64,000 nucleotides of DNA, taken from contig AP017968.1 of NCBI GenBank assembly GCA_002356455.1, positions 1,860,001 to 1,924,000 on the forward strand, written 5' to 3'. Below the pieces are notes generated by a model. That model saw only the letters and a program-made list of their open reading frames with translations. It was not told where the DNA came from and ran no database searches. The DNA is from Fusobacterium varium. GTDB taxonomy: Bacteria; Fusobacteriota; Fusobacteriia; Fusobacteriales; Fusobacteriaceae. This document shows, piece after piece, positions 30,327 through 34,004 of the stretch; the stretch's first letter is position 1, and the number at the start of each line of letters is the position of its first letter. A program made the translations under genes and the position numbers.

Positions 30327-31310
30327 TCATAAAAGGTGAATATTTAATTTTTTACAGATCTCATGAACTTCTTTTGGCCACATAGAAGCTTGAACTTCTC
30401 CTATATGAAGTTTGTCAAGGAAGAACATACAGATACGAGATTGGCCTATTCCTCCGCCAATAGTATATGGCAACTCTTTATTGATAAGTTTTTTATGATA
30501 ATCTAATTCTTTTCTGTCTTCACACCCAGCTATTTCAAGTTGTTTTACCAATGAATCTTCATCTACTCTTATTCCCATAGATGAAAGTTCCAACCCTATT
30601 CCAAGAGGCTCATAATTTAGAATTATATCTCCGTTTAATTCCCAGTCATCATAGTCAGGGGCTCTTCCATCATGTTTTTCTCCTGAATTAAGCGTTCCTC
30701 CTATTTTCATTAGGAATACTGCACCATATTCTTTAGCAGCTGCATGTTCTCTTTCTTTTGGAGTAAGAAGAGGATATTTATCTTCTAATTCCTGTGCAGT
30801 AATAAATGTTATTTTTTCAGGTATCTTTTTGTCTAGTTCAGGATATAACGAATTAACATAATCTTCAGTTTTTTTGAATACTTCGTATATCCCAGAAACT
30901 ATTTCTTTTAATGTTTCTTCTTTTCTGTCTTCTTTAGCTATTATTTTTTCCCAGTCCCACTGATCAACATAATATGAATGGATGAAATCTGTATCTTCAT
31001 CTCTTCTTATAGCATTCATGTCAGTGTATAGTCCTTCTCCTATATTGAAGTTATAATTGTGAAGTGCCATTCTTTTCCATTTTGCTAAAGAGTGAACAAT
31101 TTCAGCTTTATCTCCAGCTTTTGTAACAAAGCTTACTGGTCTTTCGATTCCATTTAAATTATCATTTAATCCACTTTCTGGTTTAACGAATAATGGAGCT
31201 GAAACTCTTGTTAAATTTAGTTCTTTAGCTAATTCCCTTTCAAAGAAATCTTTTACTTGTTTGATTGCGACCTCAGTCTGCCTGATGTCTAGTTTTGATT
31301 TGTAACCCAT
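30327..31310 (-). CDS. asnA: aspartate-ammonia ligase
   Basis: A 327-residue ammonia-dependent asparagine synthetase; E. coli AsnA is 330 residues. It has the class II aminoacyl-tRNA synthetase-like fold, with [20 protein letters not shown], the ATP-binding [20 protein letters not shown] and the C-terminal [13 protein letters not shown] motif. The ATG at 31310 has AAGGAAG eight bases upstream; the GTG at 31319 is between them. A consensus-like promoter lies just upstream (31359-31387). It makes asparagine from aspartate and ammonium using ATP. Confidence 0.95.
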
Positions 31311-31358
31311 TTTTATCACTTCCTTATTAAAATTATTATCACTTCAATATAATTTAGT

Positions 31359-31461: not shown

Positions 31462-31490
31462 TTGACTTTTTAAAAGTAATAGCGTATAAT
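31462..31490 (+). promoter_or_regulatory. strong sigma70 promoter of the basic amino acid transporter leader
   Basis: TTGACT (31462-31467), a 17-base spacer and a perfect TATAAT (31485-31490). Transcription would start near 31497, about 300 bases before the first transporter gene. Confidence 0.85.
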
Positions 31491-31531
31491 AATAAAAAAT
31501 ATAAAGGAATTAAATTAAAGGGAGAAAGCAA

Positions 31532-31579
31532 ATGAAGTTCAGGAATAATAGGATAAGGAATTTACTAATAGAAAATTGA
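31532..31579 (+). CDS. 15-residue arginine-rich leader peptide
   Basis: A short frame reading MKFRNNRIRNLLIEN with AAAGGGAGAAAG upstream of its ATG. Residues 4, 7 and 9 are Arg, all written AGG, a codon that looks uncommon in neighbouring genes (not counted). The AGG codons 7 and 9 lie in the 5' arm of an RNA stem: AGGATAAGG (31550-31558) pairs with CCTTATCTT (31586-31594). Two intrinsic terminators follow before the transporter genes. This is the layout of a transcription attenuator in which stalling at Arg codons changes downstream folding. Confidence 0.7.
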   Translation: MKFRNNRIRNLLIEN

Positions 31580-31687
31580 ATATCACCTTATCTTTAAAAT
31601 TGGCTGATCAAAATTAAACTTTCTTTGAAAAGATTGGAAATCATCTTTATTATTTAATATATTTCCATGAGTATAAAATGAGAATGG

Positions 31688-31721
31688 TCAATAGATGTTT
31701 ATCTATTGATTTTGTTTTTTT
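31688..31721 (+). terminator. leader terminator 1
   Basis: TCAATAGAT (31688-31696) and ATCTATTGA (31701-31709) with a 4-base loop, followed by TTTTGTTTTTTT. It lies upstream of the transporter genes in the leader and would stop transcription by default. Confidence 0.88.
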
Positions 31722-31730
31722 AAGAGTTTA

Positions 31731-31766
31731 AGTACAGACCTATTTTGAAGGCTGTACTTTTTTTTA
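31731..31766 (+). terminator. leader terminator 2
   Basis: AGTACAGACCT pairs with AGGCTGTACT with one bulged base, followed by eight or more T residues. It is a second terminator in the same leader, 38 bases before the first transporter start. Confidence 0.88.
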
Positions 31767-31804
31767 TAAAAAAATAAAAATTTAAATAAATGAAGGGGGA
31801 ACAA

Positions 31805-32515
31805 ATGGAGTATTTAGCATTACTAAAAGATATTTTTCTTGGAGGAAACAGATACATGTATATTGTAAATGGACTGGCTTTCTCTATTGGGACAACTATG
31901 CTGGCAGCATTAATCGGAGTATTATTAGGTATATTTATTGCTCTTATGGAATTGTCACATTTTTATCCATTAAAACATAAAAAGGGATGGGAGAAGTTTA
32001 ATCCTATATCATCACTTGCATTTGCATATGTAGACCTTATTAGAGGAACACCAGCAGTTGTACAGCTTATGATACTTGCAAACTTAATATTTGTAGGAGC
32101 TTTAAGAGATACACCTATACTTGTTATAGCTGGACTATCTTTTGGAATCAATTCAGGTGCTTATGTTGCTGAAATAATAAGAGCAGGTATAGAAGGGTTG
32201 GATAAAGGACAAATGGAAGCAGCAAGAGCTTTGGGGATGCCTTATGGAATTGCTATGAAAGAGATCATTATCCCACAAGCTGTAAAAAAAATACTTCCAG
32301 CATTAGTTAGTGAATTCATTACTTTATTAAAAGAAACATCTATTGTAGGATTCATTGGAGGAGTAGATTTATTGAGATCAGCAAATATTATCACAAGTCA
32401 GACATATAGAGGGGTTGAACCTTTATTGGCAGTAGGGTTGATATATCTGATATTAACAGCTGTATTTACTAAATTTATGAGAGGAATAGAAAAGGGGTTG
32501 AAGGTAAGTGATTAA
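31805..32515 (+). CDS. basic/polar amino acid ABC transporter permease
   Basis: A 236-residue permease of the HisM/GlnP/ArtQM family. It has the polar amino acid N-terminal TM pattern [20 protein letters not shown], the [13 protein letters not shown] motif, and the EAA loop [30 protein letters not shown] lies just before the ATG at 31805; an in-frame start at 31790 precedes that site. It is the first gene of a permease-ATPase-binding protein operon behind an attenuator-like leader. A single permease would act as a homodimer. Confidence 0.93.
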
Positions 32516-33236
32516 AGTAGCTAATTTATATAAAAATTTTGGAAAATTAGAAGTATTAAAAAATATAAGTGCAGAAATACATAAAGGTGATATAGTAGCA
32601 ATAATAGGACCATCAGGAAGTGGAAAATCTACTTTTCTAAGATGTTTAAACAGACTTGAAGAACCTACAGCTGGACATATTTATGTAAAAGGAGAAGATC
32701 TTATGGCTCCCGGAACTGATATCAATAAAGTTCGTGAAAAAGTTGGAATGGTATTTCAGCATTTTAATCTTTTTCCTCATAAGACAGTTTTAGAAAATCT
32801 TACTCTTTCGCCTATGAAATTAAAAGGTTATTCACAGGAAGAAGCTAATAAAAAAGCAATGATTCTATTAGATAAAGTAGGCTTAAGAGAAAAAGCTGAT
32901 GCTTATCCTAATCAGCTTTCAGGAGGACAAAAACAGAGAATAGCTATAGCAAGAGCTCTCGCTATGGAACCGGAAGTAATGCTTTTTGATGAACCTACAT
33001 CTGCTCTTGACCCAGAAATGATTAAAGAGGTTCTTGATGTTATGAGAGATTTAGCAAAAGAAGGAATGACAATGCTTATAGTAACTCATGAAATGGGATT
33101 TGCAAGAAATGTAGCAAATAGATTATTTTTTATGGATAGAGGAGACATACTGGAAGATACTACTCCTGCTGAGCTATTTGACAATCCAAAACATGAAAGA
33201 ACAAAAGAATTTTTAGAGAAAGTCTTGAATAAATAA
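32508..33236 (+). CDS. basic/polar amino acid ABC transporter ATPase
   Basis: A 242-residue ATPase of the GlnQ/HisP/ArtP group. Motifs are Walker [20 protein letters not shown]-loop [12 protein letters not shown], signature [16 protein letters not shown], Walker [15 protein letters not shown] and switch VTHEMGFA. The start is a GTG that overlaps the permease stop by 8 bases, showing translational coupling. It powers uptake of the amino acid bound by the next gene's product. Confidence 0.94.
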
Positions 33237-33278: not shown

Positions 33279-34004
33279 ATGAATAAATTATTAAAATCAT
33301 TATTAATGGGAGCAATGGTTTTATCATTATCGGTAACAGTACTAGCAAAAGATAAAATCTATGTTGGGACAAATGCAGAATTTCCACCATTTGAATATCT
33401 TGAAAATGGAGAAATCACAGGTTTTGATATGGATTTAGTACATGAGATTGGAAAAATAGTAGATGCAGACATAAAAATAGTGGATATGGCTTTTGATGGA
33501 CTGCTTCCAGCACTTCAAATGAAAAAAGTTGACTTGGTAATAGCTGGAATGACTGCTAATGAAGAAAGAATGAAAACTGTATCTTTCACACAGCCTTATT
33601 ATACTGCCAGCCAAGTAATCATAGTAAAAGAAGGAGATAGTTCTATAAAATCTTTTGCTGATCTTAAAGGGAAAAAAGTTGGAGTTATGCTTGGATTCAC
33701 TGGAGATATGGTTGTCAGCGAGATTGATGGAGTTAAAATTGAGAGATTCAATGCTGCTTATGCTGGAATAATGGCACTTCAAGCTGGAAAAGTCGAAGCG
33801 ATTGTACTAGATTCTGAACCAGCTAAAAATTATGTTGCACAAAATAAAGGTTTGGTTTTAGCTGATGCAGATGCAGAACAGGAGGAATATGCAATTGCAG
33901 TTAGAAAAAATGATAAGGCACTTTTAGAAAAAGTAGAAAAAGCCCTTAGTGAAATTAAAGAAAATGGAACTTATGATAAACTTATTCAAAAATATTTTAA
34001 TTAA
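33279..34004 (+). CDS. basic amino acid ABC transporter binding protein
   Basis: A 241-residue periplasmic binding protein of family 3. It has a type I signal peptide ending VLA before KDK, then IYVGTNAEFPPFEYLENGEI, GFDMDLVHEIGKI, LPALQMKKVDLVIAGMT and FTQPYYTASQVIIV, the pattern of proteins annotated as basic or polar amino acid (arginine, lysine, ornithine) binders. AAAGGGGG precedes the ATG. No lipobox is present, so it would be free in the periplasm of an outer-membraned cell. The arginine leader upstream favours arginine as ligand. Confidence 0.92.
   Translation: MNKLLKSLLMGAMVLSLSVTVLAKDKIYVGTNAEFPPFEYLENGEITGFDMDLVHEIGKIVDADIKIVDMAFDGLLPALQMKKVDLVIAGMTANEERMKTVSFTQPYYTASQVIIVKEGDSSIKSFADLKGKKVGVMLGFTGDMVVSEIDGVKIERFNAAYAGIMALQAGKVEAIVLDSEPAKNYVAQNKGLVLADADAEQEEYAIAVRKNDKALLEKVEKALSEIKENGTYDKLIQKYFN

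Follow-up and report, generated by a model that had tools for sequence, protein, structure and literature searches.

A putative arginine-sensing leader attenuator with a conserved kink-turn-like RNA element at arginine genes of Fusobacteriaceae

A transporter leader with an arginine-rich frame and tandem terminators

We examined the leader of an amino-acid transporter operon within a 64,000-nucleotide (nt) stretch of Fusobacterium varium DNA (contig AP017968.1; hereafter the window), which belongs to a Fusobacterium-type genome of 4.1 Mb denoted G000. A short frame rich in arginine (Arg) codons, a conserved hairpin that we call module M, and two intrinsic terminators precede the operon (Table 1). 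Sequence comparison and modeled folding make it highly probable that this leader is a ribosome-mediated transcription attenuator sensing charged tRNA-Arg. The operon was originally predicted to encode a permease, an ATPase, and a binding protein for basic amino acids, and its genes bear this out. The binding protein has as its top NCBIfam match the lysine/arginine/ornithine (Lys/Arg/Orn)-binding subfamily, at a score below the curated cut-off, and its top PDB sequence match is 6svf, a Thermotoga maritima-type protein that we take to be the arginine-binding protein of that species.

The promoter and leader frame named in the original prediction were both found in place. The promoter was joint best among 26 candidate sites in a scan of 4 kb, AT-rich DNA in which 21 such sites were expected. 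The leader frame starts 7 nt after its ribosome binding site and has Arg at codons 4, 7, and 9, all AGG; across the window genes, 3.2% of codons specify Arg and 9% of those are AGG. The chance of at least three AGG in 14 codons is ∼8e-6 for a single frame, uncorrected for searching. Among the tRNA genes examined, those for tRNA-Arg comprised CCU (one copy), UCU (two copies), UCG (one copy), and ACG (one copy). ARAGORN also called a tRNA with the unusual anticodon ATA (Tyr) at G000:C1:2282783-2282859 (L205), possibly a misfolded or degenerate gene.

Folding of the free leader recovered the predicted stem between codons 7–9 and a downstream strand (AGGATAAGG:CCTTATCTT; 1:2) with a probability of 0.98, and gave a probability of 0 for pairing between segments 2 and 3 (2:3). 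The original prediction proposed folding the leader with the frame region sequestered; masking segment 1 in this way brought out an antiterminator, predicted to form between UAUCU...AUUGGCUG (31589-31606) and the 5′ arm of terminator 1 (31685-31697), with computed pairing probabilities of 0.84–0.94 for AUUGGCU:GGUCAAU and 0.5–0.7 for UAUCU:AGAUG. The 1:2 and 2:3 pairings are mutually exclusive because UAUCU is part of CCUUAUCUU. Both predicted terminators fold stably; a simple terminator scanner reported zero terminators and missed them because their stems are A+T-rich. All parts originally listed were thus present, and the list was incomplete: the antiterminator pairing has now been found, and module M had been overlooked.

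Table 1. Features of the leader, the transporter operon, and the divergent gene, in window positions
Feature	Position	Strand	Basis or details
Sigma-70-type promoter, TTGACT-17-TATAAT	31462..31490	+	11/12 consensus matches; similar boxes at the same place in relatives
Ribosome binding site of leader frame, GGGAG	31520..31524	+	from sequence; GGAG-type in relatives too
Leader peptide frame, MKFRNNRIRNLLIEN	31532..31579	+	15 codons, with the Arg control codons
Segment 1, AGGATAAGG	31550..31558	+	codons 7-9; pairs with segment 2 without ribosome
Segment 2, CCTTATCTT (31586-31594) and conserved antiterminator strand ATTGGCTG (31599-31606)	31586..31606	+	folding with segment 1 masked
Module M, ∼55 nt hairpin between antiterminator strand and terminator 1	31623..31677	+	covariance model match, 51.2 bits
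Segment 3, 5′ arm of terminator 1, able to pair with segment 2 instead	31685..31697	+	folding
Intrinsic terminator 1	31686..31721	+	stem 31686-31696 with 31701-31711, U-rich tail; -10.0 kcal/mol
Intrinsic terminator 2, AAGTACAG / CTGTACTT, U tail	31730..31765	+	stem 31730-31759; -11.9 kcal/mol
ATP-binding cassette (ABC) amino-acid permease	31805..32515	+	BPD_transp_1, HEQRo_perm_3TM
ABC amino-acid transporter ATPase	32508..33236	+	GlnQ/HisP/ArtP-type
Substrate-binding protein, Lys/Arg/Orn type	33279..34004	+	TIGR01096 E 7.5e-52, under curated cut-off; PDB 6svf E 6e-62
asnA (aspartate-ammonia ligase), divergent from leader	30327-31319	-	own promoter-like site 31387-31359

Conservation of the frame and its recurrence at arginine genes

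We compared leaders across ∼50 Fusobacteriaceae genomes. The window-type permease was present in 55 of the 61 family genomes, and a Shine-Dalgarno site followed by a short Arg-rich frame lay upstream of the operon in most genera that have it (e.g., MLRNFRIR, MIRRFRIR, MLRIRN, MLFRNDRNR, VTKKFFLRSR). The transporter and other arginine loci together gave 52 distinct leader frames, in which Arg fills 32% of codons 2–11 and AGG accounts for 72% of these Arg codons, well above the window genes; 50 of the 52 frames have at least two Arg. The frame and its Arg codons were retained in every readable fusobacterial leader of the transporter operon; none of these leaders kept the terminators while losing the Arg codons or the frame. 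Four operon copies (L013, L017, L029, L055) had no frame and no such leader whatsoever, and related permeases of Brachyspira and other non-fusobacteria had no leader where the upstream region was read. One of these, from the spirochaete Brachyspira catarrhinii (L059), is 80% identical to the permease of the window, which suggests horizontal transfer of the operon; its leader is absent.

The pattern of an Arg frame with an attenuator also precedes argH, argC-J, argC-J-B-D, argC-J-carAB, and argG. The target genes fit this class of attenuator, with arginine import at the window and argC, argG, or argH at other copies. Leaders of argC-J-B-D (L155, L159, L161, L162) carry two successive attenuators: The first consists of frame, M, and tandem terminators, and ∼200 nt after M comes another Arg-rich frame (MLRKRFRRSNLKS..., MLRRNYRQKINKI), which has a terminator of its own. 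No ArgR was detected above the PF01316 cut-off in the 61 Fusobacteriaceae genomes, while control genomes gave matches.

Just 3′ of the frame, the leaders share a conserved element (window form [A]UUGGCUGA) that is predicted to pair with the 5′ arm of the terminator following it. By eye and from folds, the antiterminator pairings read GGC(c)UAAUUGAC with GUUAAUUAGCC (L015), GGCUUAAA with UUUAAGCC (L023), GGCU(g)AAUAA with UUAUUAGCC (L016), GACUGAAUUACAU with AUGUAAUACAGAC (L009), and AAUAGUCUAUAG with CUAUAGCCUAUU (L021); a GGCTGA-type element is the predicted terminator-arm partner in most M-type relatives. In computed folding of the window leader with masked segments, the 1:2, 2:3, and terminator stems were mutually exclusive by ribosome position. 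Averaged over 57 leaders, the 5′ arm of the first terminator was paired upstream at 0.63 in the stalled state, 0.42 in the free state, and 0.45 with shuffled upstream sequence. The stop codon falls in or beside the antiterminator strand in L005, L007, L009, L011, L012, L014, L023, L027, and L035, so a finishing ribosome would cover that strand.

Several points weigh against attenuation by this route. The frame search demanded Arg, so the statistics of the 52 distinct leader frames are biased upward; the position of the frame is constant in each leader compared despite this selection. In single leaders, the antiterminator signal was often no better than in shuffled controls. The original prediction asked whether Arg codons and stems co-vary across related genomes. 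The Arg codons are kept, but for the 1:2 helix in its conserved register we saw wobble changes and found none of the double covariation that we sought. AGG could be partly kept for RNA pairing; AGG codons outside the 1:2 stem are conserved as well. At equilibrium the terminator is better than the antiterminator by ∼6 kcal/mol (-19.1 vs. -12.8), so control must be kinetic or assisted. Finally, the whole leader RNA is only moderately more stable than its shuffles (z -2.0), and the weight of the case therefore comes from the cross-genome comparison. There, the kept frame and codons, the exclusive antiterminator, the recurrence at arginine genes, and the apparent absence of ArgR from the family genomes all favor the arginine attenuator originally proposed.

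We infer that the frame is translated and that ribosome stalling on it would allow read-through, as follows. The AGG control codons would be decoded by the single-copy tRNA-Arg(CCU). When arginine is ample, the ribosome would clear codons 4–9 fast and terminate at the end of the frame. The 1:2 stem (AGGAUAAGG:CCUUAUCUU) would then re-form, terminator 1 would fold, and transcription would halt. In many relatives, the terminating ribosome may itself occupy the antiterminator strand in place of the 1:2 stem; the stop codon of the window lies ∼20 nt upstream of that strand, so here the 1:2 stem would do the ribosome's covering work. When arginine is scarce, the ribosome would stall on AGG and mask segment 1, leaving segment 2 to pair with segment 3 in terminator 1, so that RNA polymerase would continue into the transporter genes. 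The same device would govern the arginine biosynthesis operons of the family. Control codons of low overall usage increase the sensitivity of such attenuators (PMC1183508).

A conserved hairpin within the leaders

Module M was defined from 31 sequences, in which the letters of GNAAAGAU ... UGAGYAUA are invariant or nearly so and ∼14 positions are near-invariant. All six of its stem pairs vary on both sides and are paired in 96% of cases; stem covariation was 0.75, compared to 0.35 for shuffled and 0.11–0.33 for slid alignments. By inspection, the consensus follows the order of a kink-turn (an AAA three-nucleotide bulge, G.A, A.G, U.U, and a helix), and the module reads, from sequence, as kink-turn-like. 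The outer helix (UUUUG:YAUAA) is consistent with a kink-turn and shows no covariation, which is limited to the helix after the G.A pairs. No Rfam family matched the leader or M at gathering or permissive thresholds.

At E 0.1, a covariance model of M matched 44 of 98 Fusobacteriota genomes; many of the lowest-scoring matches are due to chance. Away from the transporter leader, matches with E <1e-3 almost always precede arginine or amino-acid transport genes: argH, argC-argJ-carAB, argC-J-B-D, argH-argG-argC, a binding protein with argG, an APC-type transporter, and, in G000 and relatives, an antiporter gene with argH. The copy in G000 (L147, G000:C1:2646308-2646352) has the leader frame MLLRHERHGISNL and tandem terminators ahead of a Na+/H+-antiporter-like gene and argH. 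Matches L163 and L166, where a leader-like context is absent, are probably chance, and among 28 genomes from other phyla that carry related permeases there was a single weak match.

Nearly all good M matches at other arginine genes are accompanied by the Arg frame. The exceptions are L151 and L158, where M lies ahead of a terminator and the upstream frame is absent. In genus g3 (L021/L024) the usual order is reversed, with M and a large terminator hairpin first and then an Arg frame with its own terminator. At L158, an Arg-codon stretch (GTAAGGAAAAGA...) lies ∼260–330 nt after M, behind a good ribosome site and without an in-frame ATG, GTG, or TTG; it may be a leader frame that has decayed or that starts in an unusual way. 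Conversely, six genera have transporter leaders that keep frame and terminator but have no M, and the attenuator thus appears to work without it. M is most likely a second part of the same regulation, adjusting the antiterminator as a structural scaffold or binding site. The position of M inside the antiterminator loop suggests that anything stabilizing it favors read-through. Free arginine would fit such a role less well than uncharged tRNA, a signal of low arginine, a protein, or simple compaction of the loop.

Two other roles for M were weighed. M might instead act as the main sensor: a small RNA built on a kink-turn would bind arginine, a related metabolite, or tRNA-Arg as its ligand and control the terminator, and the peptide frame would be an auxiliary sensor. 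This role is favored by the near-invariant positions and fully covarying stem, by the near-confinement of good matches to arginine and amino-acid transport genes, and by L151, L158, and the 5′ half of L021/L024, in which M comes with a terminator and has no frame upstream; riboswitches commonly contain kink-turns (PMC4316175). The M-less leaders of six genera argue against it, the M-only leaders are just a handful, and a ligand stabilizing M in the antiterminator loop would be expected to turn expression on, opposite to what free arginine should do. We regard a main-sensor role as possible and rather unlikely. About equally tentative is a role as a protein binding site, for example for an L7Ae/YlxQ-type kink-turn protein or an arginine-responsive factor. 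With its three-nucleotide bulge, G.A, A.G, and regular helix, M agrees with the kink-turn consensus (PMC4316175), and an L7Ae-family protein was found in 60 of 61 genomes; it is equally present in genera without M and so does not track M, and a general kink-turn binder would explain neither the arginine specificity nor the conserved positions beyond the kink-turn.

Membership in a known class is very improbable. Kink-turns occur in T-box leaders and putatively in some lysine and glycine riboswitches (PMC4316175), and the T-box, lysine, glycine, and glutamine classes all control amino-acid genes. Yet the window gave no Rfam match at gathering scores, scanning the leader permissively found nothing of these classes, and 12 relative loci likewise had no Rfam match at gathering scores except an unrelated downstream thiamine pyrophosphate (TPP) riboswitch in L151. 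A T-box had been considered given the kink-turn and a UGG in AUUGGCUG; the UGG is not conserved (UUGACUGA, UUGCCUGA in relatives). A lysine-riboswitch-like loop, considered on the letters AUGAGUA, was discarded for lack of a match. Least credible of all is that the terminators merely end an upstream transcription unit and the frame arose by chance, as it might in AT-rich DNA with its many short frames and promoter-like sites, since frame, codons, order, and spacing are conserved across genera and at unrelated arginine operons.

Relation to known regulatory systems

The leader RNAs could regulate arginine uptake and synthesis in Fusobacteriaceae, including host-associated Fusobacterium and Cetobacterium, a family in which ArgR went undetected, and would bring arginine operons and Fusobacteriota within the range of leader-peptide attenuation. 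The conserved RNA element M now has a name and is directly testable. More speculatively, M may be a regulatory RNA of a new class, built on a kink-turn, that senses tRNA-Arg, arginine, or a pathway metabolite and is confined to arginine genes of Fusobacteriaceae, acting alone in some leaders and beside an Arg-codon attenuator in others, where one leader would read two signals of arginine supply; we think this doubtful. Binding of arginine or tRNA-Arg by M, if it occurs, would establish a new class of sensor. In the literature covered, mostly outside subscription papers, we saw neither arginine attenuators nor M described for Fusobacteria; a Fusobacterium nucleatum transcriptome paper does not mention an arginine leader, and the accessible part of a 26-genome RNA screen that includes Fusobacteria contains no such motif.

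The closest parallels are the trp/his/leu-type attenuators of Escherichia coli and Salmonella, which share the control-codon frame, the 1:2, 2:3, and 3:4 stems, the intrinsic terminator, and rare control codons. Here, in contrast, arginine would be sensed, the targets are a transporter and several arg operons, the phylum is Fusobacteriota, the terminators are in tandem, and the additional hairpin M lies between segments 2 and 3. The speF leader orf34/speFL of Salmonella and E. coli also has Arg codons, with rare AGG, that slow the ribosome at low arginine; it controls ornithine decarboxylase through Rho-dependent termination, translation, and RNase G, and differs in its DUF2618 peptide and in having no intrinsic terminator switch (PMC6386406). 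His leader peptides of bacilli hisS/hisZ are attenuators proposed, likewise from comparison, outside Proteobacteria and Actinobacteria; they differ in the amino acid (histidine), the targets (aminoacyl-tRNA synthetase genes), and the phylum (Firmicutes), with no M-like element described (PMC2965389). M itself shares with the kink-turn motif the AAA bulge, G.A, A.G, a regular helix, and a second helix across the bulge (PMC4316175), but has invariant positions beyond those required of a plain kink-turn and occurs mainly before arginine genes of one family. The ArgR/AhrC regulon covers the same targets (argC-J-B-D, argG, argH, and arginine transport) by means of a DNA-binding repressor, where the Fusobacteriaceae would use a leader RNA.
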